Assembly: GCA_022457155.1 (NCBI GenBank)
Contig: JAJGOT010000350.1
Span: forward strand, 608,001-672,000
DNA: 64,000 nucleotides
Source: Cladopsammia gracilis
Lineage: Eukaryota > Cnidaria > Anthozoa > Scleractinia > Dendrophylliidae
Direction: 5' to 3'
Shown piece by piece: positions 22,643-63,690 of the stretch. Every line of letters begins with the position of its first letter. Within the stretch, counting starts at the first letter, position 1. The notes below the pieces were generated by a model. That model ran no database searches. It worked only from the letters and a program-made list of their open reading frames with translations, and was not told the origin of the DNA. A program made the translations under genes and the position numbers.

Positions 22643-22655
22643 TGGTACCAGGAGT
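22643..22655 (+). other. Primer-binding site
   Basis: TGGTACCAGGAGT abuts the LTR. It matches the complement of an animal tRNA-Leu(UAA) 3' end at 12 of 13 positions. The tRNA identity is from general knowledge of tRNA-Leu ends and is tentative. Confidence 0.6.
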
Positions 22656-22728
22656 AAATCGAGTTGAATCGCCCGATAAAGTAGCCATCCATCGTGAAAA
22701 AAGAGTTCCGTATCAAGTTTAAGAAGAA

Positions 22729-24159
22729 ATGGAGGAAATGTTATCGGCAAATACACCAAAAATGGACTGGAACAGCAAGGATTTACCGACTGCGTGGAAG
22801 TCGTTTAGACGCCATCTTGAATTTATGTTTGGCGGACCGTTAAAGTCGAAATCGGAGGAACAGAAATGTAATTATCTCATGATTTGGGTAGGAGAAAAGG
22901 GAAGAGACATATATCAGACCTGGACGTTTGAAGATGGAGAGGAGAAAAAGCTTAACAGCTACTACGAGAGGTTCGAAGCTCATGTGAAGCCGAAATCGAA
23001 TAAGGTATTTGCTAGATACAAGTTTCACAAGAAAGTTCAGAGTGATAATGAGCCATTCGAACAGTTTCTTATTGACCTCAAGCTGCTAGTGAAAGATTGT
23101 GGATATGCAGATCCAGACGAAATGGTCAGGGATAGGATTGTCATTGGTTGCAACTCCAAGAAAGTGCGAGAAAAGTTGATACAAGAAGGATCTGAATTGT
23201 CGTTAGAGAAAGCGGTTGAAATTGCACTCACACTGGAAATGTCTCAAACGCAACTCAAAACCATGGAGGAAGAAGACAGCAAGATTCACGCCGTTAAAGT
23301 GAATCAAGCTCGAAGACAGAGTGAGAAATTAGACAAGAGGAAACTTGGCAGACCTGGAGTTGAACAGGAGTGTGGAATGTGTGGCTACATACACAGCAGT
23401 AAAGCAGAATGTCCTGCTAAGGGAAAGAAATGTCTGATTTGTGCCAAGTTAAATCATTTTGCCAAAGTCTGCAAGTCAAGAGAGAAGAGAAGAACTGTCC
23501 AATATGTGGTTAAATGTGAAAGTGGCGATGAAGCTCGGACAAAGGAAACTAGCAGCGAAAGTGAAGATGAGATGTTTTATGTGGGTTGTATAGACGCAGT
23601 TAATGCAGTTAGCCTCAGTGAATGGCGCGAAGAGCTGACCGTCAACAACAAGAAAGTTATTGTTCAGTTAGACACTGGAGCGAAATGCAATGTTATGTCT
23701 TTAGCGACGTTAAAGACTCTAGGAGGGGAGACAACAATTCAACCTACAGCAGCCAAGTTAAGGTCATACTCTGGTCACCAGATACCTATTCATGGTTGCA
23801 CAACACTCCTATGCGAACACAAGGACAAAACGTACCCCATGAAGTTTTACATTGCAGAAGGTGATGTGCTGTCCGTCTTAAGTGCACAAGCATGCAAGGA
23901 TCTCAATTTAGTCCAGCGGGTGAACTCTGTCATAGACTCGTCGGTTATTACTGATGCACGTCCAGATATTCTACTAGAATATCCAGATCTCTTCCAAGGG
24001 CTTGGATGTTTACCAGGTAAACATACTATCAGAATTGATCCAACAGTCGTCCCAGTGGTACATCCACCAAGAAAGGTACCTGTTGCACTGAAGGGCAGAA
24101 TCAAAGATGAGCTTGAAAGAATGGTGAAAGCAGGAGTGGTAGAGAGGCAAATCAAATGA
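22729..24159 (+). pseudogene. Gypsy Gag-protease and start of RT (stops at an in-frame TGA)
   Basis: 476 codons from the ATG 86 bases after the LTR. Residues 1-170 form a capsid-like Gag domain (FKSHKK-type helical region). About 215-250 carry two Cys/His knuckles, CGMCGYIHSSKAEC and CLICAKLNHFAKVC, for RNA packaging. About 320 has the aspartic protease motif VQLDTGAK. From about 420 the N-terminal reverse-transcriptase connector (LKGRIKDELERM) begins. The TGA at 24157 ends the frame; the same frame then continues into pol, so it is a point lesion or tiny indel rather than a frameshift. Gag and pol are otherwise fused without a programmed shift site. Confidence 0.93.
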
Positions 24160-24177
24160 ACAGCATGGGTTAGCAGT

Positions 24178-26733: not shown

Positions 26734-26963
26734 AGTTTAATGGAACAATGTTGAATGGAACAATGAATGCTGAATGCCTAAAGGACTGTTACACTTGAAG
26801 TTTAATGGAACAATGTTGAATGGAACAATGAATGGAACAATTGAATGGAACAATGAATGCTGAATGCGAACTTGTTAACTTGAACTTACGAACTTTTGAA
26901 CTGATTTTGTTGTTTATTTTCATGTGTTATTTACTATTATTTGCTATTATTTCGGTCTTTGCT
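26734..26963 (+). repeat. Gypsy 3' untranslated tandem repeats
   Basis: Immediately after the stop, a 'ggaacaatg/gaatg' unit is iterated, and a ~65-bp block (including the end of the coding region) is duplicated between about 26715 and 26870. Confidence 0.8.
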
Positions 26964-26976
26964 GGAGAAAGAGAGA
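26964..26976 (+). other. Polypurine tract
   Basis: GGAGAAAGAGAGA abuts the 3' LTR, where plus-strand priming takes place. Confidence 0.85.
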
Positions 26977-27074
26977 TGTAATGTATGTTAATGCCATGCC
27001 TGTACTAGGCATGACGGGTAACTAATTAAATCAGTTGTTGCACTCAACATGGCGTGGTTTGGTCGTACATTACA
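26977..27074 (+). repeat. Gypsy 3' LTR (98 bp)
   Basis: Identical over its full length to the 5' LTR and followed by the AAGCT target duplicate at 27075-27079. Confidence 0.95.
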
Positions 27075-30154: not shown

Positions 30155-30785
30155 ATTGTTTAGTTGTTTACGAAATATCCCGAGCTACCACAAAAAAAAA
30201 AATTGAAATAAAACGCCTTCTCGCCCGACTACAGACCTTCAGTATTCATGTTTAAAATGACAAAATATTACCCTTGTTATGGGCACGTCAAAAACTGAAA
30301 AATAATGAAGTATGACTAGAATTACATAAAGGCAAAAAGATAAAACTGAAAGTGGGACGAACACAATGTTGTCTATGTGTAGTTTCTTGACTCTCCTGGA
30401 TCCTGAAAGCCACACTTTGGCCTGTTTTAATTCATAGTGCTCTGTAACCTAAAATAATCCAAGGGCTAACCGACGAATGGAGGCTGAAAATCTGCCTTAA
30501 TCGAACCCAATCGCTCCAAAACTTCACTCGAGTGTAGATCGAAGACGAAACGTTTCCAACAAAATTGAAATAAAGCTATCGATTAAAAAGAGGGCAACTG
30601 AAAGAATAAAATAGAAAGCTCTACAGTTATGACTGTTGTGGGGTATTCTACATTTGTAACTTGAAGAAAGAAATGGGACTGGCCGTTGCTTCTTTTCTCC
30701 TGCTGGGGTGTGTAACTCTGACAGAGCTTTTCGGTGAACTAACTGGACATCAACGGCTGTAAACCGTGTCGTGTTAAAACTAATA

Positions 30786-31298
30786 GACCTTTTCACGGTT
30801 TTTGGCGCCATCTTGGTCGGGAGGCAAACATGGCTACAATTACAGTAAATGAATTGGATTTTGGCGGACTTCGAGCCTCTGTAACTTCGTTCAATGTTGT
30901 CGGATCTTGACTAAGAATACATCTTTTAAAAGATATTTTTGATGAGATTCTTTTCGTTAAATATAGTGAACAAAACCAAATTATTACAGCCGCAAACAAA
31001 ATTTTAAAACTTCGCATAAACCCTTGTAATCAAAACTGCAAATTTGCCGCGAAATTACAAGTGACATGAGAATTAAAAAGATTTCTAATTCAGTTTACAC
31101 AAACGTTGTAGCGTTTGTAATGATCTAATTTTCGATCAGTTTAATAACATAGATAAGATGCACCTTTAAATTTTGGAAGCCCGTCGATGTGGAGTGGAGT
31201 TACGGAGGTTCAAAGTCGGCAAAAATCCCATGCATTTACTGTAATTGTAGCTATGTTTGCCCCCCAAACAAGATGGCGCCTAAAACCGTGAAAAGTCT
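30786..31298. mobile_element. MITE with TIRs and TA flanks
   Basis: The left end 'gaccttttcacggttttt' plus 'ggcgccatcttgg' returns inverted at the right ('gatggcgcc'..'aaaaccgtgaaaagtc'), and both ends continue through 'caaacatggctacaatt'. TA lies on each side, consistent with a Tc1/mariner-type MITE. The copy in segment C begins at about 54030. Confidence 0.8.
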
Positions 31299-32874
31299 AT
31301 TGAATATTATCAGCATTAAAGTCATTAACATTTGAGCCTATAATGATTGCTCATTATAAATGCAAATTTTACTATATTTTTCTTTTGCCAACAAATTCAG
31401 AAGGGAGCATCTGTAGAGTCTGTAGCGTCTTGTTTTGTTTAGTATCAACATTTAGCTAATGCGTTTTGAGAAAAAGGAAAAAAAAAAGAGACCTTTTTTT
31501 CTGGCTGCCTAACTGACCATTCTAAAATCCTCGCAAAACTAGAGCGAAAATGGCATGACAACTTTGACTGAAATTGCATGTGACTTAATTTCGTCTGTAT
31601 CACGTGCACGTTTATCAACATTTTATTGAACTAGCTTGCTCGGTCCGTGTTTGTAAAAAAAAAAATATCAGTCTTGTTATTGTCTTTTATGCTGGCAGTT
31701 GCTTTAGCCCCCGTCTCTTGCACTGAACAAGTTAGTCGATAACATCTGTGTATATCTCTCAGGATTTTGTTCAATTTTTAATATCGTTAAGGTTTGTGAT
31801 TTGATGATTTACATGCCAACTGTAAACGAAAGACCGATTAAGAAGTGATCTCGATGAATCGTGTTAATGAATCTGAAATCATATGTTAAAAAGAAAACCG
31901 TTTTTGTAAAGTAGAACCCTTTTCCTACGAAATTGCTTTTCCGTCGGCACTGAACTGAATGTCATTATCGTGAAACCGATAATTGACTTAGCATTATCAC
32001 TAGAATGACATGAAAGCCAAACAGATAAAAACTGAAAGTGGGACAAAAACAAAAAGCCTAGGAATTATATAATAATGACTTTTGTTACGAGGTACCTCAC
32101 ATTTGTCAGACGTCCAACAAATTTATGTTTTGACCGAAAAATTATTATGGTGAATAAAATGTCTACGAAACGTCAATATGCCAACGGGTGACCACTATAT
32201 ATCTTCCGCTTTATTGTAAATTAACCAAGTCTGATTGGGAACGGTTCAGTTCACGGTTCCAAGTATGGCAGGCTGTTGTTTCTCCGTGTAAGTATTATCG
32301 CTGGCCTGTGTTGTTTGGGGCGTTTGACTGAATTGCATTGCTACTACACATCAAGGTAACAAACATTTTTAGCTTATATACACAAAACCTAGCTCTACTT
32401 GGTATGTTATTTTTTTTTTCATGATGCTTTAAAAAACGTAATGGTCAAATTAAATTCGGTCGATGTTTTAACTGAGAGAATAAAAGTATTATTTATTGAT
32501 GAACCTGAGCCCGTTCAAGAAAAAAAAAAACTCTCTTTGTCGGTGACATATGTTGCCATGTTACAAATGCGAACCGAATTCATTTAAAAAGTTTAAAAAC
32601 GAGAGCGTATTACGATTTTTTTACATCAACTCGATGCACATCATCTTGACTTGCGTTCTTTCTCTCTAGCCTCGTACCGGTTCGACCGCGTTCTTACTTG
32701 AATAGGAATAAAAAAAAAAAAAAAACAATAGTTTTTCATAATTTCAAGAAAGACGATAACAGTGCACGAACATATTTTAATAAATTGCGTTTTTCAGAGC
32801 TAATAATGTTTAAAGAAAACTGTTTTTTTTGTATAGTAGGAACCTTTTAATGGTTGTCCAACTGGTTAACAATT

Positions 32875-33617
32875 CAGTAGAACCTCGATTTAACGAACCT
32901 CTATCTAACGAAGTCCTCGGTATAACGAACGATATTCTCCAGCCCAGCAAAATTACAAGTAAAATGTATGGAACAGAACCTCGATAAAACGAAATCCTCG
33001 TTATAATGAAGACAATCCGGCAGCCCAAACGTAAAATCAACCCCGAAATAACGAATAAAAGTCAACGAGCGGCAAAAGATGAATGCGGAACAGACCAACA
33101 GAAAGAAACAATACTTATAAAAATCACACTTAGGCAAAGGGGGATCTTAAAAGCATGACCAGATGAGCGTGTGGAAGAATATGCAACTGGCTGAAGTTCA
33201 GATTATCTACATACGCTAAATTATTTCTGAATTTGTAAAGTAAATACAAGCGGCCAATTGTTCTACGAGTTTACAAAATCTTCCAGCCCAGGTCATTCAG
33301 TATGCATGCCAGCCACACTGTCCTGACGATTGTAACGCGAAAGGACCCATCGAGTTGCCCTCCTCTGAACCATTTCCACTTGCGCGATGGTCTTGGCTGT
33401 GTAACAGTCCCATACAGAAGAGCAGTATTCAACTGTATGCAGGACAAGAGCTTAGCATGTCTTAAATCATTAACTATACGTCGATATAACGAACATTTTG
33501 GTTGTTTTTTCCCCCGCAAATTCGTTATAACGAGGTTTTCGATATAACGAACCCTCGATATAAAGAACCAATTTCCCCAGTCCCTTGCCACTTCGTTAAA
33601 TCATCGAGGTTCCACTG
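32875..33617. mobile_element. Tc1/mariner-Tigger-like MITE (743 bp) carrying a captured RT fragment
   Basis: Ends 'cagtagaacctcgattt' and 'cgaggttccactg' are inverted repeats, and the TA target base pair is seen at the right side (33618-33619). Repeated 'cgatataacgaa' words fill both subterminal parts. The middle holds a minus-strand LINE fragment (see next entry). The second copy is at 56235-62031. Confidence 0.8.
33271..33480 (-). pseudogene. LINE reverse-transcriptase C-terminal fragment inside the MITE
   Basis: On the minus strand one frame reads 'VEYCSSVWDCYTAKT' and 'VEMVQRRATRWVLSRY', the conserved post-RT region of CR1/L2/Jockey-type LINEs ('EY.S.VWDP' and 'QRRA.RWV'). The same fragment is present in the segment C copy (61700-61890), so it was in the MITE before segment duplication. 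Confidence 0.7.
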
Positions 33618-33959
33618 TATTTGCAAAAATTTTCTGGAAAAATATGAAAACAACATTAGAAGAAACACCCCTCCGTCAAAAACCTTGTCTATGCAGCGCA
33701 CGTTTGCTGATGTACTATCCTGCGACAAATCAAAAAGCTATATAATAATAATAAACATTTTTCGCAATTATTATAAAAACGCATTTTTGAACTAGTTTGT
33801 CCGCGCCTTACTAGAATAATATTATTTTCTTTCCTTTTGTTTCCATGCGATAAGTAGAACTCGCCTTGGCCAATCAACTTGAAAAACAGACAAAAATAAG
33901 CCAGCATTTTTTTTTTTATACGGCAGGAGCTGGTAGTAAAGAAAACACTTCCATCAGCC

Positions 33960-34065
33960 GATGAATGCATGTTAAGCTCTAATAAATTGATTGCGCTATC
34001 GTCACCAGTAAATACTGGGCTTCAAGGCCTTCGAGCAGATATTTTCTCCATAGAACGAATTGTTT
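33960..34065 (+). repeat. Segment block shared with 9601-9708 and 62395-62495
   Basis: Third reference copy of the block that links segments A, B and C; it contains 'atattttctccat' and 'gcatgttaagctctaataaatt'. Non-coding. Confidence 0.75.
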
Positions 34066-35364
34066 TGTCGGCAAAGAGCATATGCATTATGTGTGTTACA
34101 TTTATCATGAGCGAGGTCTAAAAAGAACGTACTACTGATTGCTGCACTTATTCTTTTTTCACTGCCGTTAAAATTATGCCGCTTTTCAGAGCTCTCTGTC
34201 CTAGCTTACAAAGGGTTCCTATGAATAATATATCTAGGTAGCTTTTTAGTTAAAGACCACTTATGTATTTCCTTCGGACGGAAAAATTATCAAATTTTGT
34301 GTGATTTTGTGCGGTCATTTTGATATGTTTTAGTGTTATAGATAAACTCAGTTTTAACTTGGCATCGTGGAGAAACTGTTATTAGCTAATAAGCTAAAGG
34401 AAACTTATCAAAGGTATGATATTTATTTCGATTTTATAGCACATTCAATGAATATGGTAAATTAAGCGAAATGATGGTGGGCGTAACAGGCGAATTGCAT
34501 TTAAACATTCCAAGGTAGCTAACCGAAAGTTGACATTTCAATACTGTGGGAAGTCTTATAATTCCCATTTTAGTAATAGACCATGTCGGTTTACATAATC
34601 AATGCTTATATCAAACCTTCATTCTTATAACTGCGAGTTTATATCATCACCTCTTCATCTAAAATAGCCAAATCTAAACAAAACAACAACAGTCATGACA
34701 CAATTCAGACAATGGGTCATTTCATTTATATCGGACGTCAGTGAGGTTGATAAACGGAATGGTTAACACGATCGACAGATTGTTTTAGAATACGCACTAA
34801 CTTTAGTAATCCACGGAAAGTCAAATACAGTTTAATATATCTTTAAGAAAATATTTAATCGAATACCATAATTGCCTAAAAATTATTTTTTTCCTCGCTA
34901 GAGGAGTCTGTGCGCTATCTGTTGTGATCGGAGAGGATATAACGAATATAAACCCAATACTTTAATACTTTTATCCTCATGTCTTTATTGAAATACGTGT
35001 CTAGAATTCAGACAACAAATGCAAAATTTGCACTTTCTCATTTTGATACTATTGTGCTCTATGAACAGATAAAAATATAAAATAAACTTTAAGAGAAAAT
35101 ATAACTAATGTACCAAAAGGTATCATTGTATGAAAAATCAAAATGTCTAAAAATTCGCCAATGAGTGCACGTAGTTAAAGATTAGACAACGTTCCTTTTG
35201 CCACGGTATTTTTTTTTTCGCCGCCATTTTGAACACCGAGATAGAAGGTTGAGGATGTCTGGTCTGAATAGGGTTATTAACAATAATTAGGTTTTGAAAT
35301 CTTTATCCGTAGATAACAAAAAAAAAAAAACTGGTGGAAAGAAACCGAACCAACTCCGGAAACC

Positions 35365-44231: not shown

Positions 44232-46829
44232 TGTTTTACCAAGAGAACAAGCCAACAATTGTTCGTTGCAGAAGAGGCTGCGGAACTGGGTCCGATTAAA
44301 GTCAATTTCACGTTTGGAGTTCGCTTAACAAAGGAAGGAGTCAATGACACAGATACAATCAACCATTAGATCAGACTGCCTAACCCATTAATAGTAACAC
44401 ACTTCAGCCAACTTGAAGTTGCTAAGCAAACGGACGCCGTTATCAACTCGATAATGTAAGAAGTAGCAAGGCGGGTATACATGGGATCAGGTTGGATCAT
44501 TGAAAAAGTAAATACTGTTTATCTTGACTTTAGTAGATACCAACCTATCAGAGGCGGCGCTTACCTACCTCCCCCTAAAAAGTTAAAAGATAAGAAGCCC
44601 ATCATAAACATAAAAAATAGAGCCGATCAATGTTTGCGTTGGGATTTACGTGCAGCGTTGTTTCCTACACTAGACACGATACATGCAACAGACGAAGTAC
44701 CCAACAGACGACGGCTTGGATTTCTTTCCCAACGGCCCTAACTCGGCTCTCAAGAGTTGAAAGGCAGAACAGCCTAGCCTTTAACGTCTTTGGGTGGAAA
44801 ACAAATAATGTTGCCATCTATAGAGTTAGTGAAGTAGAAGATAAGGGCGTAAGACGAGTAAATCTTATGCTGATAGCCAACGAAAACAACACTCACTACT
44901 GCTATATAAAAAGCATAAGCAGGCTTCTTCGCAGCCAGCACGACACTGGAAATAAGGCCTATTTCTGCGATAGGTGCCTTCAAGAGTTTTCATCGCAGCG
45001 CGTACTCGACAATCATCTGGTCTACTGCAAAGGCATTAAAGGTCGGCCAGTTCGAGTTGAAATGCCAAAGGAGGTTAAAAACATCCTGCGTTTTGAGAAC
45101 TATCAGAACCAGATGAAGGCACCTTACATCATCTACGCAGACTTCGAAAGTCTCGTAACAAAAATAGTCCACGATTGCAATCCAGACCCCACAGAAAGCA
45201 GCACAACCAAGACATAAGTCCACACGCCCTGTGGTTTGGCTTCACGGTTGTGTGCTCAAACGGTAAATCATATGGTCCTTTCTACTACAAAGATGAGGAC
45301 GCAGTGAAAGTGTTCCTGCATAACATCCAACAAGTGGAGAGGATCATCAGAGATAAGCTAAGGTTGAAAAAGCCTCTTACCATGACAAGGGAAGACTGGG
45401 CAAACCACAAAAGGGCTGAAGAGTGCATCATCTGCCACGAAGACCTGTATAAAGAACATTTCAAGGAATCCGTTGAGGTTTACGATCCGAACACTGGAGA
45501 AAACGCAGGTTTGGTTCGCTGGAAAACCAACAAATGTTACTCCAACGCCTACAAAAAGACGTTCGTCCAAGACGAGGCGCTTCAGAGACTCTTTCGAAGA
45601 CCACTGCCACATAACAGGCAAATATCGAGGCGCTGCTCATAGGGCTTGCAATCTGAACTACTTCAGAATCAGCCCAAACACGATGGCAATACCAGTTGTG
45701 TTTCATAACCTGAAAGACTACGACGCACACTCCTATAGCGATATAGCCAATGTCCAAGCCGATCTAAAGTGCATACCAACCACCATGGAGAAGTACATCA
45801 CATTCTCCCTTGGCAAACTGAGGTTCATCGACAGCTGCAAGTTCATGCAATCAGGCCTCGATAACTTAGTTAGATCAAACAGTCCCAACTCCTTTTCCAT
45901 AACTAGCAAGTATGAAAAGGATCCCGACAAACTAATGCTCCTACTGCAGAAGGGAATCTCCCCATACGAATACATGTTCTCTTGGGAAAGGTTCGACGAG
46001 GAGACTCTGCCTGAAAAGGATGCGTTCTTTAGCAAGCTCAAAATGGAGCTCATCAGTGACGCAGACTACGAACACGCGAAGGCGGTGTGGAAGGCGTTTG
46101 GATGTAAGAGTCTCGGCGATTATCACGACCTATACCTCAAGATGAACGTGCTGCTGCCAGCTGATGTGTTCGAGAACTTCAGAACAACCTGCATGAAGCA
46201 TTATAGCCTCGACCCTGCCCATTACTACAAAAATCCTGGTCTAAGTTGGGACGCTCTCCTAAAACACACAAATATAAAGTTGGAACTCCTTACGGACCCT
46301 GACATGCATCCAATTGTCGAAAAGGGAATGCGCGGCGGCATTTCAATGGAGAGCAGGCGTTACTGTAAGGCGAACAATCCCTATCTTGAAGACAACCAAG
46401 GCGAAGGCGAAGGCGAACAATCCCTATCTTGAAGACAACCAAGACAACCAAGACAAGGAAACAAGTTACATCATGTATCTGGATGCAAACAACCTCTACG
46501 ATTGCGCCATAAGTCAGCACCTCCCAGTCGGTAATTTTGCTTGGTGTAGAGTAATACCAACAGAATACCAAATCAGGAAGTTGTCTCCAACCAGAAAGTG
46601 GGGCTACATCTTTGAGGTGGATCTTGAGTATCCCAAAGAGTTGCATGACGAGCAGAACGCCTACCCTCTAGCACCAGAAAAACAAAGAATCGAAAAGGCG
46701 TTGATGTCTGACTACTGTCATGTCCGATCTTCTCAAAGAGAAGAGCTCGAGAAGTTCAAACATTTCTTACATGACAACCAATTTGCTTATAATGAGATCA
46801 ACCCCCCTAACCGCAATACAAGTAATTAG
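44232..46829 (+). pseudogene. Polinton/Maverick-type DNA polymerase B, N-terminal two thirds (frameshifted)
   Basis: Five frame segments joined by about four frameshifts give a protein-primed type-B polymerase. A weak start leads to 'GSGWIIEKVNTVYLDF' (from 44481), then a Cys/His cluster 'YFCDRCLQEF' to 'LVYC', the 3'-5' exonuclease motif 'YIIYADFES' (about 45125), and a His/Cys insert 'CIICHEDL' and 'DHCHITGKYRGAAHRACN' (about 45420-45660) resembling an endonuclease-VII-like HNH knuckle. A long conserved middle with 'NPGLSWDALLKHT' and the polymerase palm motif A 'YLDANNLYD' (about 46475) follow. The catalytic palm motif with two aspartates, thumb, integrase, ATPase and capsid genes are absent. 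A 33-bp tandem duplication (46367-46440) adds 'NNPYLEDNQ' twice. Confidence 0.88.
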
Positions 46830-53269: not shown

Positions 53270-53690
53270 TTCATCGTGTTTCACAACAGAGCTTTTTCCT
53301 CTACAAATTTGGCCAAGTGTGAAAAGGTTGGTTCCGTGCCAGATAAGATCATTGAGCCAGCTTTATCCACCCATTTAGACTGCAGGCCAGGGTTGTTCAA
53401 AAAGTGAATAGTACTATCCACCGGATAAATCACTATCCAGTGGATAACACAAAGGATTTTGTTAATGCTTATCCACTGGATAGTGATTTATCCGGTGGAT
53501 AGCGCCATCCACCTTTTGAACAACCAGGGCCAGCTAGATACATAGGAAAGCGTTGTATGGGTTCCGGATAAAAATTTCCACATCTTTATACAAACGATTC
53601 AAATACGCGAGTTGCCCAGTTATCGACCTCGTTAAAAATACTACTCTCGACTCGCGGTTGTAACACCTTCCTCGAGCCGTAAAGCTATAA
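53270..53690 (-). pseudogene. BEL/Pao-like Gag fragment, inverted copy
   Basis: On the minus strand it repeats the 'LQSKWVDKAGSMILSG' and 'FSHLAKFVEEKALL' elements of the relic at 11.34-11.74 kb. It is additionally split by the 53391-53525 foldback element. Decayed, with no other domains. Confidence 0.4.
53391..53525. mobile_element. Foldback MITE (135 bp) inserted in segment C
   Basis: 'ggttgttcaaaaagtg' to 'cttttgaacaacc', with an interior palindrome around 'ctatccaccggataaatcac'. Segment A lacks it at the matching place near 11.6 kb. Confidence 0.85.
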
Positions 53691-54029
53691 ATTAAAAAGA
53701 CGGAAACTGAAAGAATAAAATAGAAAGCTCTACAGTTATGACTGCTGTGGGGTATTCTACATTTGCAACTTGAAGAATTAAAATAAAAGTTTGAGATGTC
53801 ATGATGTTAGCGGGTGACCAGCCAATATATTCCACTCTGACCAGACCTTGGATCGGGAACGGTTAGTTTGACGGCTTCAAATGTGACAGGCCGTTGCTTC
53901 TTTGTTGCTTCTCATCTCCTACATGCTGGGGTGTTTAATTTTGACAGAGGTTTTTGGCTGAACTGCATTGTAACTGGACATCAACGGAGAAAGAGTCAGC
54001 TGTAAACCGGGTCGTGTTAAAACTAATCG

Positions 54030-54700
54030 ACCTTGACGGTTTTTGGCGCCATCTTGGTTGGGGGGCAAACATGGCTACAATTACAGTAAATTAATGGGAT
54101 TTTGGCGGACTTCGAAACTCTGAAACTTTGTTCAAATGTTTCGGATCTTGACTAAGAATACATCCTTTAAAAGGTATTTTTTCATGAGATTCTTTTCGTT
54201 AAATACAGTGCACAAAACCAAATGATTACAGCCGCAAACAAAATTTTAAAACTTCACACAAACCCTTGTAATCAAAACTGCAAATTTGCCGCGAAATTAC
54301 AAGTGACATTAGAAGATTTCTAATTCAGTTTTTACAAACGTTGTAGCGTTTGTAATGATCCAATTTTCAATCAGTTTAATAACATAGATAAGATGCACAA
54401 AAATAACTTTAAATTTTGGAAGTCCGTCGATGTGTTATGGAGTTGTGGAGTACAAAGTCAGCCAAAATCCCACACATTTACTGTAATTGTAGCTGTTTGC
54501 TCCCCAACCAAGATGGCGCCAAAAACCGTGAAAAGTTTATTAAATATTATCAGCATTAAAGGCGGGGGGGGGGGGGGGGGGGGGGGGCAAACATGGCTAC
54601 AATTACAGTAAATTAATGGGATTTTGGCGGACTTCGAGACTCTGAAACTCCGTTCAAATTTTCCCAACCAAGATGGCGCCAAAAACCGTGAAAAGTCTAT
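54030..54700. mobile_element. TIR MITE (copy of 30786-31298) with partial tandem duplication
   Basis: The copy runs from 'gacggtttttggcgcc' to 'aaaaccgtgaaaag' at about 54536, then a 24-G run (54564-54587), and then a second, internally deleted copy ('caaacatggctacaatt' ... 'ccgtgaaaagtc') to about 54697. Confidence 0.75.
54564..54587 (+). repeat. Poly-G tract (24 G)
   Basis: Uninterrupted G homopolymer at the junction of the two MITE copies. It has G-quadruplex potential. Confidence 0.95.
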
Positions 54701-56251
54701 TAAATATATCATCAGCATTAAAGTCATTAACATATGAGCCATGTGCTCATTATAAATGCAAATTTTACCAGATTTTTCTTTTGCCAACCAATTCAGAAGA
54801 GAGCGTCTATAGTGTCTGTAGCGTCTTGTTTTGTTTAGTACTAACATTTAGCTAATACGTTTTGAGAAAAGGGAAAAAAAGACCTTTTTCTGGCTACCTA
54901 ACTGACCATTCTAAAATCCTCGCAAAACTCGAGCGAAAATGGCATGACAACATTGACTGAAGTTACATGTAACTTAATTTCGTCTGTATCACGTGCACGT
55001 TTATAAACATTTTACTGAACTAGCTTGCTCGGTCCCTGTTAGTAAAAATATTAGTCTTGTTATTGTCTTTTCTGCTGGCAGTCGCTTTAGACCCCGTCTC
55101 TTGCACTGAACGAGTTAGTCGATAACATCTGTGCATATCTTTCAGGATTTTGTTCAGTTTTTAATATCGTTAAGATTTGTGATTTGATGATTAACATGTC
55201 TCTGCGTTTAATGAGGCCAACTGTAAAAGATAGACCGATTAAGAACTGATCTCGATTAATCGTGCTAATGGATCTGAAATCATATGTTAAATAGAAAAAA
55301 AAAAACGTTTTTGTAAAGTAGAACCTTTTTCCTGCGAAGTTGCTTTTCCTGAATGTCATTATCGTGAAACTGTTAATTGACTTAGCATTATCACTGGAAT
55401 GATATAAAAGCCAAACAGATAAAAACTGAAAGTGGGAAAAAAAAAAAAAAAAGCCTTGCAATTATATCATAATAACTTTTGTTACGAGGAATCTCAATAA
55501 AATGTCTACGAAACGTCAATATATCAACGGGCGACCACCTTATATCTTCCGCTTTATTGTAAATTAACCAAGTCTGATTGGGAACGGTTCAGTTCATGGT
55601 TCCAAGTACAGCTGTATGGCAGGCTGTTGTTTCTCCTTGTCAGTACTATTGCTGGCCTGTGTTGTTTGGGGCGCTTGACTGAATTGTATTGCCACTGCAC
55701 ATCAAGGTAACAAACAACTTTAGCTTTTATACACAAAATGTAGCTCTACTTGGTATGTTATTTTTTCATGATGCTTTGAAAACGTAATGGTCAAATTAAA
55801 TTCGGTCGATGTTTTAACCGAGAGAATAAAAGTATTATTTATCAATGAACCTGAGCCCGTTCAAGACAAAAAACATGCTTTCTTTGGCGGTGACATATGC
55901 TGCCATGTGCGAATCGTATAATTATGATCGTTCGAATTCTTTTAAAAAGTTGAAAAAGGAGAGCGTGTTACGATTTTTTACATCAACTCGACGCGCATCG
56001 TCTTGACTTGCGTTCTTTCTCTCGACCGAGTTCTTACGTAAATAGGAACAAAAAACAATAATGAGCCTTTACGAGTTTTTTTTTTTTTTTTTTTATAATT
56101 TCAAGAAAGAAGATAACAGTGCACGAACATATTTTACTAAATGTGCTTTTTTCAGAGCTAATAATGTTCAAAGAAAACTGTTTTTTGTTTGTATAGTAGG
56201 AACCTTTTAACGGTTGTCCAACAGGTTTACAATACAGTGGCACCTCGATTT

Positions 56252-56257
56252 AACGAA
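56252..56257 (+). other. Target-site duplication, left copy (AACGAA)
   Basis: AACGAA precedes the left terminus and recurs at 60862-60867. The uninterrupted MITE at 32.9 kb has a single copy at this place. Confidence 0.92.
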
Positions 56258-56702
56258 AGTAGTAGGATAGGCACAGCAGCTACCTTTTTTTTGCGGGGGA
56301 ATCTAATTAATTTGCGGGGGAATACATTAACGTAGATGACGTCATAGGCTCTTGTCTTTTATCTCATGAATAAAATGCTGTGGTTTCTCATTAACGTGCG
56401 GAGGTATACATTAACGACCGTTAATTACGTTATTGCTGTGGTATTCCATAACCTAGAATAACCAGTTCCAAAAACCGGCTTTGCAAGATTTCACCACAAT
56501 GGCGCAATGAACTCGCCCAGACGTGCCCTATTATTATTCTCCCTTCCCCTGCCTTCCCCTGTTTTATAAATAAATAAATATTAATAAACGGAATCCCTTT
56601 TCAAAACAATGGAAACAATAGGTTTGCCCAAAGTTGCCCGCTTTATACCAACTCACTTCAAAACAAAACAAAACTGACACAGATATCCTTTACAGACATA
56701 GA

Positions 56703-56954
56703 TCAAAACAACATGCCTTGACCAGGGCTCGAACCTGAGTTACTGCGGCCACAACGCAGTGTCTTAACCACTAGACCATCAAAGCTGTGGATATTATAAC
56801 CGAATAAAACTAATAAGAGGGTTCCGAAACATTCAAGTTTAGAAGCAAATAAATTGCACAGTATAACAAACCGCCCTTTCCTTTCTAAGATCCGCAACAT
56901 TCTTTTAGCCGCTTCATCGCTAGACTCTATATCGATTTTCAGTTTGCCAGCCAT
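56703..56954 (-). CDS. Small ORF in the left arm, overlapping the tRNA gene
   Basis: From the ATG at 56954, 83 codons beginning 'MAGKLKIDIESSDEAAKRM'. The N-terminal 30 residues are charged and helix-forming, and a hydrophobic stretch 'CFGTLLLVLFGYNI' follows. The last ~27 codons are simply the tRNA gene read as protein, so the functional part, if any, is the first ~55 residues. It differs from the right-arm copy at two residues (R/I and V/A). Family not recognised. Confidence 0.4.
   Translation of the reverse strand: MAGKLKIDIESSDEAAKRMLRILERKGRFVILCNLFASKLECFGTLLLVLFGYNIHSFDGLVVKTLRCGRSNSGSSPGQGMLF
56714..56785 (-). tRNA. tRNA-His (GTG), left arm
   Basis: 72 nt fold into a full cloverleaf: acceptor GCTTTGA/TCAAGGC, D stem GTCT/AGAC, anticodon stem CTGCG/CGCAG with loop TTGTGGC (anticodon GTG), T stem TCAGG/CCTGG with TTCGAGC, discriminator A. 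The B box GGTTCGAGCC is intact. The anticodon arm is that of animal tRNA-His. A short T-run follows within ~10 bases. Confidence 0.8.
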
Positions 56955-57132
56955 CACCCACTTTAAGTTTTACAACTTTACCGGTAGCTTCAAAGTTCAA
57001 ACTTTTAATTATGCGAACTTACACTGAACTAAATTTGCATGAAAAATTAGCACCTCGGAAAAATAAACAAAGCAACCAATTACACGCGCGCGCTAAAACA
57101 ATAAAACCACACTTTGTTAAGTTCAAACTATA

Positions 57133-57138
57133 TTTATT
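57133..57138 (-). terminator. Poly(A) signal, left-arm acidic-protein unit
   Basis: AATAAA on the minus strand about 75 bases after the stop codon of the ~160-residue ORF. Confidence 0.6.
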
Positions 57139-57210
57139 GATAACAAACAAGTTCATAATTATACAGACAATTTAAAAGCTTAGATGGAAAGGAACAGAGT
57201 TGATTTAGTC

Positions 57211-57693
57211 TTATTCATCGGGAAGAGCTTGTTTGACAAACAATCGATTGAGTAAGAATTTTCGCTTATCGATGGCAAGTTCTGTCGATTCGAGCCAATC
57301 AAATCCCTCTGTGTCTTTTAACTCTTGCTGGGTTTGAATAACTTTTCGAAAGGTCGAATCTTTCTTCATAGCACGCATCCATTGTAGATTCTCTAAGAGT
57401 ATTTTTCTCAGTTCCTTTCTATAAACAGGAAGCAAGGCATTTTCAGCTTTAATGCGAGCCACGTTGTGTGAATCTCCGTTTTGCTCGTATTCATTTATCA
57501 AAGCGTTGAACTCGGCTTCGTGGCGACTAAAAGCTTCATCTTGAATACGCGACCAAGGATCTATCTGCTCTTTCTCTTCTTGGGAAGATCCCATTTCTTC
57601 GCTAGATTGAGAGCCTTGAGATGACTGTTCGCTTTCTTGCGAACTTTCGCTTTCTTCGGAATACCCATTCCCTTGTTGATAGTCGCTCCACAT
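57211..57693 (-). CDS. Acidic, Ser/Glu-rich ~160-residue protein, left arm
   Basis: The true start is taken as the ATG at 57693; an upstream in-frame GTG would add 12 residues but is unlikely in a eukaryote. Residues ~10-50 are low-complexity Ser/Glu/Gln with SSQ repeats. Residues ~55-150 are predicted helical and charged, with 'WSRIQDEAFSRHEAEF', 'ENALLPVYRKELRKILLE', 'LQWMRAMKK' and 'FDWLESTELAIDKRKFLL'. No signal peptide or membrane segment. The unit has its own TATA box and poly(A) signal. The protein is identical to the right-arm copy. I do not recognise a named family, and the function is unknown. Conservation of both copies suggests selection, gene conversion or recent origin. Confidence 0.8.
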   Translation of the reverse strand: MWSDYQQGNGYSEESESSQESEQSSQGSQSSEEMGSSQEEKEQIDPWSRIQDEAFSRHEAEFNALINEYEQNGDSHNVARIKAENALLPVYRKELRKILLENLQWMRAMKKDSTFRKVIQTQQELKDTEGFDWLESTELAIDKRKFLLNRLFVKQALPDE

Positions 57694-57759
57694 CGTCAGT
57701 GATCTTAACTGCACAAGTTCTGACAACACACTAAACTATACTGAGCTGATGGGGTGTTT

Positions 57760-57769
57760 CTTTTATATA
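57760..57769 (-). promoter_or_regulatory. TATA box of the left-arm unit
   Basis: TATATAAAAG on the minus strand, about 67 bases upstream of the ATG, with an initiator-like TCAGTA about 20 bases further on. Confidence 0.65.
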
Positions 57770-57993
57770 TTTCGATAAAGGCGCGGTTACGCGGCAAAAT
57801 CCTAATGAATTGATTTGTGTTTTGTTTGATAACAAAATGTTAGAATGAAATAACTTTACGGACGTTCCGCAAATTCACTATAAGTGCCCAGTTTATCATC
57901 CAAGAAATTTAATATTCGAGGCTGTTTTCGCAAATCCTTGATCATATATAAAAAAGTAACCAGATTCCCGTATTTACTGTTGTGATCAAATGA

Positions 57994-58192
57994 TAGGGGT
58001 ACAGAAAGGGTACAGGAGGGGTACAGGAGGGGTTCAGGAAGGGTACAGGAAGGGTACAGGAGGGGTACAGGAGGGGTACAGGAGGGGTACAGAAAGGGTA
58101 CTGGAGGGGTACAGGAGGGGTACAGAAAGGGTACAGGAGGGGTACAGGAGGGGTACAGAAAGGGTACAGGAGGGGTACAGGAAGGGTACATC
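57994..58192 (+). repeat. 12-bp minisatellite (GGGGTACAGGA-type)
   Basis: About 16 degenerate units of 'ggggtacagga' or 'aagggtacagg'. The right arm has only about four units (59084-59130), so the array marks the point where the arms become asymmetric. Confidence 0.95.
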
Positions 58193-58245
58193 CACGTCAC
58201 GTGTATAGTTGGCGTTTCTTACAGTCACCGTATTATGTATACACT

Positions 58246-58629
58246 TTACAAAATAAACCATCGAGGAGATGAATGTGTTGTTCTTTTACGACATTTGGCG
58301 GTTTTGGTTGCTTTTCCAACACCTCCTGTTCCTGTTTTCAATAAACCCTTTGCTCTCCTAGGTATAGATAGATTATAAACAACGCTTTTTTCTTCTTGTT
58401 GAGTTGATGGATATGTTTTACTTGTGGAACATACTCTCGAGTCTTTGCTGTTCTCCGTTTCATGATAGATAACCACTTTTACCTTGGGTTGCAGTTTGAC
58501 CTCTTGCAGGTACTTTCTTCGCTGAATGTGATCTAGTTGATGCACATCAGTGAGATGGTTAGATAATTTCACGAGGTATTTTGCTCCGCATCCCGGAATT
58601 GGGCAATCGCGACACACTCGTTTAACCAT
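58246..58629 (-). CDS. Small basic zinc-finger-like protein, left side only
   Basis: From the ATG at 58629 (upstream non-ATG codons ignored), 127 codons. Residues 8-35 read 'CPIPGCGAKYLVKLSNHL' then 'TDVH', a C-x4-C...H-x4-H arrangement resembling a C2H2 finger. A basic region 'RRKYLQEVKLQPKVKVV' follows, and the C-terminus is Lys/Arg/Ser-rich. It probably binds DNA or RNA. It lies in the 699-bp stretch that has no partner in the right half, so the element carries it once. Family not named with certainty. Confidence 0.6.
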   Translation of the reverse strand: MVKRVCRDCPIPGCGAKYLVKLSNHLTDVHQLDHIQRRKYLQEVKLQPKVKVVIYHETENSKDSRVCSTSKTYPSTQQEEKSVVYNLSIPRRAKGLLKTGTGGVGKATKTAKCRKRTTHSSPRWFIL

Positions 58630-58733
58630 GTTAACAGCTCGAAATCTGAACACATATGAAGACCTTTAACGAAATGTTTGCCTTAAAAAAAACAAGGACA
58701 AAAAGGACAAAATAAGAACACTAGGGACATTTT

Positions 58734-58849
58734 AAGGTCAATAAGGACAAAACGAGGACTATCAGGACAAAAGGGACAAACGGGACATATCTAGTCTTAA
58801 TACCTCCCCGATCGCGGTATCCAAACATACCTAGACTTGTCCAAGTGAC
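58734..58849. repeat. Inner inverted arm, left
   Basis: Reverse complement of 58968-59083, with a few substitutions ('ccaaacatacctag' against 'tccagacataccgag'). Contains iterated 'ggacaaaa' words. In the right half it adjoins the outer arm directly; in the left half the 699-bp block intervenes. Confidence 0.9.
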
Positions 58850-58967
58850 TGCAACCATAATCATTTTGGGAAAGTTTAATTTTGCGGATGAACGTTTTGT
58901 TTCAAATCTTTTTAATCTTTGTAATCTTTTTAAGAGAAAACGTTTGCGCGAATATTTTGTGGTTGTC
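58850..58967. other. Central 118-bp spacer of the palindrome
   Basis: AT-rich and only weakly self-complementary at its edges ('gcaaccat' against 'tggttgtc'). It would form the loop of a cruciform or hairpin. No gene. Confidence 0.7.
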
Positions 58968-59083
58968 GTCACTTGGACAAGTCTCGGTATGTCTGGAGAC
59001 CGCGATCGGGGAGGTATTAAGACTAGATATGTCCCGTTTGTCCCTTTTGTCCTGATAGTCCTCGTTTTGTCCTTATTGACCTT
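58968..59083. repeat. Inner inverted arm, right
   Basis: Partner of 58734-58849; it runs straight into 'gtacccctcctg', the right outer arm. Confidence 0.9.
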
Positions 59084-59349
59084 GTACCCCTCCTGTACCC
59101 CTCCTGTACCCTTTCTGTACCCCTATCATTTGATCACAACAGTAAATACGGGAATCTGGTTACTTTTTTATATATGATCAAGGATTTGCGAAAACAGCCT
59201 CGAATATTAAATTTCTTGGATAATAAACTGGGCACTTATAGTGAATTTGCGGAACGTCCGTAAAGTTATTTCATTCTAACATTTTGTTATCAAACAAAAC
59301 ACAAATCAATTCATTAGGATTTTGCCGCGTAACCGCGCCTTTATCGAAA

Positions 59350-59359
59350 TATATAAAAG
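59350..59359 (+). promoter_or_regulatory. TATA box of the right-arm unit
   Basis: TATATAAAAG 67 bases upstream of the ATG at 59426, followed by TCAGTA in the initiator position. Identical to the left-arm promoter. Confidence 0.65.
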
Positions 59360-59425
59360 AAACACCCCATCAGCTCAGTATAGTTTAGTGTGTTGTCAGA
59401 ACTTGTGCAGTTAAGATCACTGACG

Positions 59426-59908
59426 ATGTGGAGCGACTATCAACAAGGGAATGGGTATTCCGAAGAAAGCGAAAGTTCGCAAGAAAGCGAACAGTCATCT
59501 CAAGGCTCTCAATCTAGCGAAGAAATGGGATCTTCCCAAGAAGAGAAAGAGCAGATAGATCCTTGGTCGCGTATTCAAGATGAAGCTTTTAGTCGCCACG
59601 AAGCCGAGTTCAACGCTTTGATAAATGAATACGAGCAAAACGGAGATTCACACAACGTGGCTCGCATTAAAGCTGAAAATGCCTTGCTTCCTGTTTATAG
59701 AAAGGAACTGAGAAAAATACTCTTAGAGAATCTACAATGGATGCGTGCTATGAAGAAAGATTCGACCTTTCGAAAAGTTATTCAAACCCAGCAAGAGTTA
59801 AAAGACACAGAGGGATTTGATTGGCTCGAATCGACAGAACTTGCCATCGATAAGCGAAAATTCTTACTCAATCGATTGTTTGTCAAACAAGCTCTTCCCG
59901 ATGAATAA
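59426..59908 (+). CDS. Acidic, Ser/Glu-rich ~160-residue protein, right arm
   Basis: Same protein as at 57211-57693, residue for residue. It is transcribed towards the right terminus, so the two copies diverge from the centre. With TATA box, initiator, ATG, stop and AATAAA within ~640 bp it is a compact stand-alone gene. Function unknown. A structural or replication-associated role in the element is possible but not shown. Confidence 0.8.
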   Translation: MWSDYQQGNGYSEESESSQESEQSSQGSQSSEEMGSSQEEKEQIDPWSRIQDEAFSRHEAEFNALINEYEQNGDSHNVARIKAENALLPVYRKELRKILLENLQWMRAMKKDSTFRKVIQTQQELKDTEGFDWLESTELAIDKRKFLLNRLFVKQALPDE

Positions 59909-59980
59909 GACTAAATCAACTCTGTTCCTTTCCATCTAAGCTTTTAAATTGTCTGTATAATCATGAACTTGTTTGTTATC

Positions 59981-59986
59981 AATAAA
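59981..59986 (+). terminator. Poly(A) signal, right-arm acidic-protein unit
   Basis: AATAAA about 70 bases after the stop. Confidence 0.6.
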
Positions 59987-60164
59987 TATAGTTTGAACTT
60001 AACAAAGTGTGGTTTTATTGTTTTAGCGCGCGCGTGTAATTGGTTGCTTTGTTTATTTTTCCGAGGTGCTAATTTTTCATGCAAATTTAGTTCAGTGTAA
60101 GTTCGCATAATTAAAAGTTTGAACTTTGAAGCTACCGGTAAAGTTGTAAAACTTAAAGTGGGTG

Positions 60165-60416
60165 ATGGCTGGCAAACTGAAAATCGATATAGAGTCTAGC
60201 GATGAAGCGGCTAAAATAATGTTGCGGATCTTAGAAAGGAAAGGGCGGTTTGCTATACTGTGCAATTTATTTGCTTCTAAACTTGAATGTTTCGGAACCC
60301 TCTTATTAGTTTTATTCGGTTATAATATCCACAGCTTTGATGGTCTAGTGGTTAAGACACTGCGTTGTGGCCGCAGTAACTCAGGTTCGAGCCCTGGTCA
60401 AGGCATGTTGTTTTGA
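60165..60416 (+). CDS. Small ORF in the right arm, overlapping the tRNA gene
   Basis: Mirror of 56703-56954 with two amino-acid differences (I for R, A for V). The 3' third is the tRNA gene. Coding status is doubtful. Confidence 0.4.
   Translation: MAGKLKIDIESSDEAAKIMLRILERKGRFAILCNLFASKLECFGTLLLVLFGYNIHSFDGLVVKTLRCGRSNSGSSPGQGMLF
60334..60405 (+). tRNA. tRNA-His (GTG), right arm
   Basis: Same 72-nt sequence and cloverleaf as the left-arm copy: seven-pair acceptor stem, anticodon GTG, intact A and B boxes. Confidence 0.8.
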
Positions 60417-60861
60417 TCTATGTCTGTAAAGGATATCTGTGTCAGTTTTGTTTTGTTTTGAAGTGAGTTGGTATAAAGCGGGCAACTTTGGGCAAACCTA
60501 TTGTTTCCATTGTTTTGAAAAGGGATTCCGTTTATTAATATTTATTTATTTATAAAACAGGGGAAGGCAGGGGAAGGGAGAATAATAATAGGGCACGTCT
60601 GGGCGAGTTCATTGCGCCATTGTGGTGAAATCTTGCAAAGCCGGTTTTTGGAACTGGTTATTCTAGGTTATGGAATACCACAGCAATAACGTAATTAACG
60701 GTCGTTAATGTATACCTCCGCACGTTAATGAGAAACCACAGCATTTTATTCATGAGATAAAAGACAAGAGCCTATGACGTCATCTACGTTAATGTATTCC
60801 CCCGCAAATTAATTAGATTCCCCCGCAAAAAAAAGGTAGCTGTTGTGCCTATCCTACTACT

Positions 60862-60867
60862 AACGAA
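60862..60867 (+). other. Target-site duplication, right copy (AACGAA)
   Basis: Immediately follows the right terminus and matches 56252-56257. Confidence 0.92.
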
Positions 60868-61070
60868 CCTCTATATAACGAAGTCCTTGGTATAACGAAC
60901 GATATTCTCCAGCCTGGCAAAATTACAAGTAAAATGTATGGAACAGAACCTCGATGAAACGAAATCCTCGTTATAACGAACACAATCCGGCAGCCCAAAC
61001 GTAAAATCTACCCCGAAATAACGAATAAATGTCAACGTTCGGCAAAAGTTGAATGCGGAACAGACCAACA

Positions 61071-61490
61071 GAGAGAGAAATTCTTTCTCTCGGCTCGGAG
61101 TAAAACTGTGGAATAAGATACTACGCTATATAACGTATCTTGCTAAGAATGCTTTCAAAAGGGCTCTCCGCAAATTTCTATTCGATATTTTAGAAAAGGA
61201 GTGACTATATTCAAATCCCTATGATTATTAATAAAGTAAGTACATAGATACACTTACTAGTCAGAGACACCTTGTCTTTACGTAATTAGATAACTTAACT
61301 TCTGTGTTTTTATTCATTTTTATACGCAATCTGCAAGGCTTTTCAATAGTATAAGGTTTTTTGATTTTGTAGATATTTGTATTATTGATGTACTTGTTTT
61401 GCCCCGCCCCGATTAGCTTTCCAGCTATTTGCAGGGCAAACAAATCATTCAACTCTTCTATTGTTATACCAAGAATAAATTGTTCTTGTT

Positions 61491-61526
<36 letters not shown>

Positions 61527-61529
61527 AAA
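61071..61529 (+). mobile_element. 5'-truncated LINE 3' end with (TTG)n tail
   Basis: Segment B lacks this stretch at the matching site near 33105. It begins with the last ~41 codons of a LINE ORF ('NSFSRLGVKLWNKIL' ... 'LRKFLFDILEKE', stop at about 61201) and a 3' UTR, and ends in a TTG array (61491-61526). 'gaaagaa'-like flanks may be the target duplication. Clade not settled (RTE- or CR1-like). Confidence 0.75.
61491..61526 (+). repeat. (TTG)n microsatellite
   Basis: About 12 TTG units forming the tail of the LINE fragment. Confidence 0.95.
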
Positions 61530-61699
61530 AGAAAGAATACTTATAAAAATCACACTTAGGCAAAGGGGATCTTACAAACATGACCAGATGAGCGTGTGTA
61601 AAAATATGCAACTGGCTGAAGTTCAGATTATCTACATACGCTAAATTATTTCTGAATTTGTAAAGTAAATACAAGCGGCCAATTGTTCTACGAGTTTAG

Positions 61700-61890
61700 A
61701 AAATCTTCCAGCCCAGGTCATTCAGTATGTCAGCCACACTGTCCTGACGATTGTAACGCGAAAGGACCCATCGAGTTGCCCTCCTCTGGACCATTTCCAC
61801 TTGCGCGATGGTCTTGGCTGTGTAATAATTCCATACAGAAGAGCAGTATTCAACTGTATGCAGGACAAGAGCTTTGCATGTCTTAAATCA
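61700..61890 (-). pseudogene. LINE RT C-terminal fragment inside the Tigger-like MITE (copy 2)
   Basis: The minus-strand frame repeats the 33.3-33.5 kb fragment and reads further, to 'VADILNDLGWKIF' and a stop. Confidence 0.65.
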
Positions 61891-62283
61891 TTAACTATAC
61901 CTCGATATAACGCATATTTTGGATGTTTTTCCGCAAATTAGTTATAACGAGGTTTTCGATATAACGAACCCTCGATATAACGAACCAATTTCCCCAGTCC
62001 CTTGGCACTTCGTTAAATCGAGCTTCCACTGTATTTGCAAAACGTTTCTGGAAAAATATAAAGACAACATTAGTAGACACACCCCTCCGTCAAAAACCTT
62101 TTCTATGCAGCCCACGTTTGCTGATGTGCTATCCTGCGTCAAAAAGCTATATAATAATAAACATTTTACGTAATTATTATAAAAACGCCTTTTTGAACTA
62201 AAAATAATGTCCGCGCCTTACTGGAATAATATTATTTCTTTTTTCTTTTGTTTCCAAGCGATAAGTAGATCTTGCTTTGGCCA

Positions 62284-62312
62284 AACTTGAACTTGAACTT
62301 GAACTTGAACTT
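62284..62312 (+). repeat. (TTGAAC)n hexamer microsatellite
   Basis: Five tandem units. Segment B has one unit at the matching place (about 33878). Confidence 0.95.
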
Positions 62313-63690
62313 GAAATACAAACAAAAATAAGCCAGCATTTTTTTTTTCATACGGCAGGATCTGGTAGTAAAGAAAAAACTTCCATCAGCCGATGACTGC
62401 ATGTTAGGCTCTAATAAATTGCTTGTGCTATCGTCACCAGTAAATACTAGGATTAAAGGCCTTCGAGCAGATATTTTCTCCATCGAACGAATTGTTTTGT
62501 TGGCAAAGAGCATTTGCATTATGTGTATTACATTTATCATGAGCGAGGTCTAAAAAGAACGTACTGATGCTAATTGCTGCACTTATTCTTTTTTCACTGC
62601 CGTTAAAATTATGCCGCTTTTCAGAGCTCTCTGTCATAACTTACAAAGGGTTCCTATGAATAATATATCTAGGTAGCCTTTCAATTAAAAACCACTTATG
62701 TATTTCCTTCGGACAGAAAAATATATCAAATTTCGTGTGATTTTGTGCGGTCAATTTGATATGTTTTAGTATTATAGATAAACTAATTTTTAACTTGGCA
62801 TCGTGGAGAAACTGTTATAGGCTAATAAGCTAAAGGAAACTTACCCAAGATATAATATTTATTTCGATAGCACATTCAATGAATATGGTATATTAAGCGA
62901 AATTGATGGTGGGCGTAACAGGTGAATTTTGGCCAATTTGCATTTAAACATTCCAAGTTATTAGCAATTAGTTTCTTCAAAAAGGAAGTCGAAGTGCTAA
63001 CAATGCTTCATGTTAGAGTAGGCTTGAGGTTTGTAGCTAACCAAAAGTTGACATTACAATATTGTGGTAAGTCTTGTAGTTCCAATTTTAGTAGTATATC
63101 ATGTCGGTTTGCATAATCAATAATTCTATCAAATCTTCATTCTTATAACCACGAGTTTATATCATCACCTCTTCATCTAAAGTAGCCAAATGTAAACAAA
63201 CCAACAACAGTCATGACACAATTCAGACAATGGGTCATTCCGTTTACATCGGACCTCAGTGAGGTTGATAATCGGAATCGGTTAACACTATCGACAGATT
63301 GTCTTAGAACACACACTAACTTTGATAATCCACGGAATAAATAAAGTCAAATAAAGTTTAATCTATCTTTAAGAAAATATTTAATCGAATACCATAATTG
63401 CCTAAAAATTCATTTTTTTTACTCGCTAGTAAGAGGAGTCTGTGCGCTATTTGCTGTGATCGGAGAGAATATAGCGAGTATATACCCAATACTCGCTTGA
63501 AACTTTAATACACATCATGTCTTTATTGAAATGCGTGTCATGAATTCAGACAATAAATGCAAAATTTACACTTTTTCATTCTGATATTATTGTGGTTTAT
63601 GAACATATAAAAATATAAAATATTTTTTTAAGATAAAATAGAACTAATTTACTAAAATGTATAATTGAATGAAAATATATATTTTTGGGA

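Follow-up and report, generated by a model that had tools for sequence, protein, structure and literature searches.

Introduction

Polintons, also called Mavericks or polintoviruses, carry an end signature that is given in the accessible part of PMC8097293 as AGTAGT//ACTACT or (AG)3//(CT)3, together with a 6-bp target site duplication (TSD). In this study we analysed a 64,000-nt stretch of the genome of the coral Cladopsammia gracilis (contig JAJGOT010000350.1, positions 608,001 to 672,000; hereafter the window) and focused on a 4.6-kb element at window positions 56258-60861, a near-palindrome with ends of the Polinton kind. Symmetrical inverted duplications of one end are formed by protein-primed linear replicons, as in the hairpin derivative of a yeast killer plasmid and the snap-back defective genomes of adenovirus, and these palindromic derivatives are extrachromosomal defectives. 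Long inverted arms are also a property of the Foldback/Galileo elements of Drosophila. In the accessible part of PMC3573991 the terminal inverted repeats (TIRs) of Galileo are 98-100% identical within copies, and swaps of ends and centres are discussed in terms of conversion and ectopic recombination; the same part cites three papers, including a 2007 review, for inverted-repeat expansion in Polintons.

The window element shares with Polintons the AGTAGT//ACTACT ends, the 6-bp duplication and a homologous terminal 278 bp, but no PolB or integrase was detected in it, 83% of its length lies within inverted arms, and a histidine tRNA gene (tRNA-His) and an open reading frame (ORF) of 160 aa, ORF160, are found in both arms. 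As in Galileo, so far as the accessible text of PMC3573991 describes it, long inverted arms are near-identical within a copy, chimeras without TSDs occur and ends and centres are exchanged; however, Galileo has a 7-bp TSD and belongs to the P superfamily, whereas the TSD here is 6 bp and the partner elements encode PolB and a retroviral-type integrase. In contrast to the protein-primed palindromic derivatives, the elements described here are integrated, multicopy and gene-bearing. With miniature inverted-repeat transposable elements (MITEs) and ordinary non-autonomous DNA transposons they have in common the ends of an autonomous element and, presumably, movement in trans, but they differ in having conserved ORFs in both arms, a length of 4.6-8.8 kb (ORF-bearing copies read whole) and arms that change together. 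Virophages and satellite viruses offer a further parallel, as small elements that presumably rely on a larger, virus-like one, and one relative (C809) has its own packaging-type ATPase; no capsid gene was found in the window element, however, and the supposed helper is itself a transposon. A literature search of titles and the beginnings of abstracts, with most subscription papers and Repbase outside its scope, found no description of palindromic gene-bearing Polinton satellites. We consider it highly probable that the window element is a non-autonomous satellite mobilised by Polintons, with arms that are homogenised.

Structure and insertion site

A preliminary description of this locus had proposed a palindrome with AG...CT termini and about 1.9 kb of inverted arm on each side. 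Both points are borne out, the former by the arm alignment and by termini that read 5'-AGTAGTAGGATAGG...CCTATCCTACTACT, i.e. AGTAGT...ACTACT, and the latter by a measured arm of 1.91 kb (Table 1). The centre, which had been put at 118 bp, measures 96 nt. An inverted repeat of 1.8 kb is judged, by reasoning, to be far beyond chance. The 697-nt stretch that only the left arm of the window element has is complete in both arms of the sister copy C803, and 572 nt of it occur in both arms of the sister copy C1183.

The AACGAA duplication had also been said to be readable against an empty site at 32.9 kb, and this proved correct: both flanks align there without the element (31263-32897 with 54663-56257 at 82%; 32891-33116 with 60861-61085 at 93%), and AACGAA is single at that site. 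The source of the empty site is a pair of diverged duplicated blocks, 30571-35136 and 53680-63675, which are 82-94% identical. Taken together, the ends and the 6-bp duplication suggest integration by a Polinton integrase acting in trans.

Polinton loci with matching ends

The terminal 300 bp of the window element were searched against 878 Mb in 1,469 contigs of the same genome, and at least 44 matches were obtained with 40 of the 372 candidates scored. The preliminary description had named polymerase-encoding elements with the same termini as a check on its proposal, and such elements do occur in this genome, where five loci encoding Polinton genes have these termini. At one of them, C1265:27383-50902, an inverted pair of matching ends encloses a 23.5-kb Polinton, whose terminal repeats of 371 bp are 95.8% identical to each other and, over the first 278 bp, 90-91% identical to the window element. 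This Polinton encodes, in two adjoining ORFs, an integrase of the rve family (Pfam E 2.7e-12) together with a chromodomain, and its ATPase is matched by Adeno_IVa2 below the cut-off (E 4e-4); capsid-like and protease-like ORFs are named by appearance, without a Pfam match. PolB is interrupted; a search with its middle piece gave 1,252 homologues at E<=1e-10. PF03175 is present in many of the 120 homologues listed, which include three proteins of Porites annotated as DNA-directed DNA polymerase. The target duplication is imperfect, with five of six positions agreeing (TCGTTG/TCTTTG). The remaining loci (C978, C1343, C1137 and C679), read over 9.9 kb each and each showing part of the gene set, were each seen with one matching end (82-92%) and encode relatives of the C1265 Polinton genes.

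Elsewhere in the window, the reading frames at positions 44621-46829 are broken; they match Endonuclease_7 weakly and, along some 93 residues, show 34% similarity to the N-terminal portion of the Polinton PolB. This is perhaps the remnant of another, more distant polymerase-bearing element.

Concerted change of the arms

A tree was built from the terminal 330 nt of 11 elements, with gap columns left out of its distances (40 for C389, 16 for C1265). In it an element's own arms are sisters in seven of the eight elements with a perfect TSD and also in the C1265 Polinton. Among TSD-bearing elements the distance between own arms is 0-1.3%, compared with 0.6-10.9% to the nearest foreign arm. The arms of C1392 and C599b, which have no TSD, pair crosswise with each other.

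Comparison of the window copy (W) with C803 over 56258-57985 revealed nine events that affect both arms, six of them substitutions and the others an insertion of 9 bp, a deletion of 10 bp and an indel of 1 nt; eight of the nine were assigned to the W lineage by comparison with C1016. Eight further events affect one arm (five in W right, two in C803 left, one in C803 right and none in W left). The occurrence of the same 9-bp insertion and 10-bp deletion in both arms makes independent evolution of the arms hardly plausible. The arms are homogenised in the copies compared, and this includes the replacement of both ends.

Three left/right asymmetries next to the 96-nt centre are identical in W, C803 and C1183, and two more sites are unequal in W and C1183 and equal in C803; the latter were either equalised in C803 or altered in an ancestor of W and C1183. 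The shared asymmetries suggest that the palindrome of these three copies most likely arose once and that its arms have since been equalised almost to the centre.

C1183 has the centre and the ORFs of the window element. Inward from position 347, C1183 is about 96.5% identical to the window arm and its ORF160 DNA is identical, whereas its outer 184 bp, alike at both C1183 ends, have a single 16-nt inverted match to the outer 346 bp of the window element. The outer stretches of C1129, C1022, C1119, C882 and C999 do not match those 346 bp, and that of C1027 has a single 34-bp match; in all six the left and right ends agree at 99.3-100%. These alternative outer sequences are a patchwork among themselves. 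Paired end swaps of this kind are most simply accounted for if one end is replaced and the arm that bears it is then copied.

Related elements in the genome

More short elements with long inverted arms and differing TSDs, which the preliminary description had also suggested looking for, were found. Among 25 distinct elements whose two ends were sought, with single-ended loci excluded, 20 have perfect 6-bp TSDs, every one different. The other five are the chimeric C1392 and C599b, the C1265 Polinton, and C1246 and C1015, whose ends were uncaptured or unmatched; the two end stretches of C1015 do not match each other, and its ends may differ or lie outside the stretch. A genome search with ORF160 gave at least 151 matches (150 of 450 candidates scored), some of which are fragments of one copy, and 27 are identical in protein. 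Within 78 of the 151 match rows, made up of long matches and their partners, there are 32 adjacent inverted pairs within 6 kb, and 30 of these have the -+ order of the window element.

Near-complete palindromes are C803 (5,294 bp), C1183 (4,689 bp), C987 (3,138 bp, without ORF160) and an 8.8-kb element of another subfamily, C1265:30999-39819 (L043, L032), which is nested within the C1265 Polinton and flanked by the TSD ATGGCT. This nested insertion ends in a sequence of its own and encodes one tRNA-His as well as a 253-aa ORF that is 34% identical to ORF160 over 122 aa; it is a satellite lodged in a helper-type element. A different type of cargo is carried by C809 (L040, 1461-4453), a short element with 1-kb arms in which a 448-aa C2H2-ATPase (Pox_A32 22.9 bits, cut-off 22.8) lies together with two further ORFs, a Polinton-like one of 108 aa and an acidic one of 290 aa. 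The cargo of C636 is similar but its frames are broken. Outside the near-complete palindromes, the arms of family members are shorter.

Two loci, C1392:280753-282544 and C599:1098988-1103528 (L035, L037), lack TSDs and show a crosswise exchange of arms and of one flank, such as recombination between a pair of palindromes would leave. At C419:1177721-1224672 four ORF160 matches are spaced at about 15.5 kb, possibly as a tandem array of larger units.

Gene content

The claim that each arm carries genes of its own was upheld, with tRNA-His and an intact ORF160 on both sides. Among six subfamilies the tRNA-His is no better conserved than its surroundings (85%), and tRNA prediction in C599a and C273 returned none; for these reasons no selection on the tRNA is claimed. 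ORF160 is directed outward from the centre in both arms. It has 599 homologues in the protein collection, the named ones among the 120 listed being from the corals Oculina patagonica and Porites. No credible Pfam or PHROGs domain and no NCBIfam match were obtained for it, and no relatives were found in IMG/VR (pattern search) or phage records. Its N-terminus is acidic, and the AlphaFold model is helical but weak (pLDDT 63.5, pTM 0.40). In one predicted protein of Oculina an ORF160 relative is fused to a piece that resembles the first ORF of the C1265 Polinton, with 58% identity over 91 aa.

The ratio dN/dS was estimated for 12 ORF160 copies picked for having no stop (older copies do have stops). 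It ranges from 0.10 to 0.70 across 54 pairs with at least eight differences each, 43 of them at 0.13-0.35; the pairs are non-independent, and the small counts were given no test of significance. These values point to constraint, which would be superfluous in a passive deletion derivative. Over its first 55 aa the 127-aa ORF is 53-55% identical to L032:7341-7177 and L046:8404-8240, stretches that immediately precede the packaging ATPase in two Polintons, and in L046 the matching stretch runs straight into the ATPase match. A role in replication or packaging of the element is probably to be predicted for ORF160 and this ATPase-like ORF.

No integrase, transposase or polymerase match was found among the ORFs of the window element. 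There is no similarity to the C1265 PolB pieces and no ORF for a protein-primed PolB within 56258-60861, and capsid, ATPase and protease genes were not found apart from the 55-aa match to an ATPase N-terminus. These results, with the terminal 278 bp and the 6-bp TSD shared with Polintons, agree with the earlier view of the element as Polinton-like and non-autonomous.

Table 1. Features of the window element and its insertion site (window coordinates)
Feature	Position	Strand	Remark
Left arm, 1,779 nt	56258..58036	+	6 mismatches to 59083-60861
Right arm, 1,779 nt	59083..60861	-	pairs with left arm 56258-58036
Inner left arm, 127 nt	58734..58860	+	6 mismatches to 58957-59083
Inner right arm	58957..59083	-	pairs with 58734-58860
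Asymmetric centre, 96 nt	58861..58956		also in sister copies C803 and C1183
Left-arm-only stretch, 697 nt	58037..58733	+	absent from right arm of window element
11-nt tandem repeat, left arm	57995..58190		
Left 6-bp target duplication AACGAA	56252..56257		directly adjoins element
Right 6-bp target duplication AACGAA	60862..60867		directly adjoins element
Single AACGAA of empty paralogous site	32892..32897	+	flanks align without element
Terminal 278 bp common to Polinton loci	56258..56535	+	91% identity to left end of C1265 Polinton, 82-92% to one end each of four others
tRNA-His (GTG), left arm	56714..56785	-	ARAGORN; Rfam RF00005, 59.3 bits
tRNA-His (GTG), right arm	60334..60405	+	ARAGORN; Rfam
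ORF160 (160 aa, intact), left arm	57211..57693	-	
ORF160, right arm	59426..59908	+	protein identical to left-arm copy
127-aa ORF, left arm	58246..58629	-	first 55 aa resemble N-terminus of Polinton packaging ATPase

The window also contains, at 22545-27074, gag-pol-like long frames between identical direct repeats of 98 bp, apparently a young long terminal repeat (LTR) retrotransposon.

Discussion

The arrangement of the window element could be explained if it were inserted in trans by a Polinton integrase and replicated from either end by the protein-primed PolB of a Polinton. A displaced single strand would then fold back on itself, with the 96-nt centre as the turning point, and two matching arms would be rebuilt when the folded strand was copied, so that one mutated or swapped end would be copied to the other side. 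We lean towards this complete account, in which a Polinton-mobilised satellite renews its arms by snap-back replication, with less assurance than we have in the mobilisation and homogenisation themselves.

The most serious alternative accepts mobilisation by Polintons and attributes the likeness of the arms to host gene conversion and to ectopic recombination between them, in the manner of Galileo-like foldback elements. We regard it as a reasonable possibility, though we would not expect it to be the correct one. Galileo provides a precedent for TIR expansion, for end and centre swaps and for TSD-less chimeras (PMC3573991, accessible part), two TSD-less copies with crosswise related arms are present here (C1392 and C599b), and the likeness of the arms ends beside the centre, as conversion tracts would. 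However, conversion must span almost the entire 2.3-2.6-kb arm in C803 and C1183 and carry new ends to both sides, and yet it has left unrepaired five private substitutions and the 697-nt absence in the right arm of the window element. Arm co-change and two-sided end swaps fit both mechanisms; the extent of arm identity, together with the paired end swaps, puts snap-back replication slightly ahead.

It is very improbable that these elements are an autonomous new class of transposon which is moved by its own proteins (ORF160 and the ATPase-like ORF) and has captured Polinton ends. A dN/dS below 1 in the intact ORF160 copies compared and the presence of ORF160 with several dissimilar ends would suit such a class, but an integrase, transposase or polymerase match is lacking among the ORFs of the window element and its ends are Polinton ends. 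Foldback/Galileo elements typically have long inverted arms with internal repeats, and on that account a separate foldback transposon from another DNA transposon superfamily, only superficially Polinton-like, might be considered; we reject it as very improbable, because the terminal 278 bp are common to loci that encode PolB and integrase and the TSD is 6 bp, compared with 7 bp in Galileo. Perfect palindromes are classic chimeric-read artefacts, but an inverted chimera of assembly or sequencing is rejected with equal firmness, given arms that differ at 12 aligned sites and by 697 nt, a TSD with an empty paralogue, and the recurrence of the 96-nt centre at two further loci whose TSDs are different, a point that argues against a slip in assembly.

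Several observations weigh against the complete account, snap-back included. Arm co-change would also be expected from gene conversion between the arms, as the Galileo precedent illustrates. In the 330-nt tree C803 is an exception, its own arms being 0.61% apart and 0.62% from W, and the arms of C987 are merely 97% alike over 1,434 nt, though identical in the outer 330. Arms make up merely about 36-54% of the length of C809, C599a and C1033, and two of the 32 ORF160 pairs, from a distant subfamily, are in the opposite order. With regard to the supposed helpers, the C1265 pieces gave no PolB, capsid or protease match in Pfam, and ORF160 was not found in the stretches read of the five Polintons, outside the nested element.

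A more far-reaching form of the snap-back account may be offered tentatively. The elements would be integrated satellites of Polintons, or 'hyperparasites', that replicate as a fold-back, with the whole palindrome rebuilt from one arm in each cycle. The single effective end could then be exchanged, giving access to a new helper, and selection would keep ORF160 in both arms. We find this version attractive, but would not yet back it over its alternatives.

If true, the existence of a gene-bearing family of palindromic satellites would suggest that these transposon-viruses have parasites with genes of their own. Two questions would become testable by sequence, namely how identical terminal repeats are maintained in protein-primed elements and whether helpers are switched by the swapping of ends.

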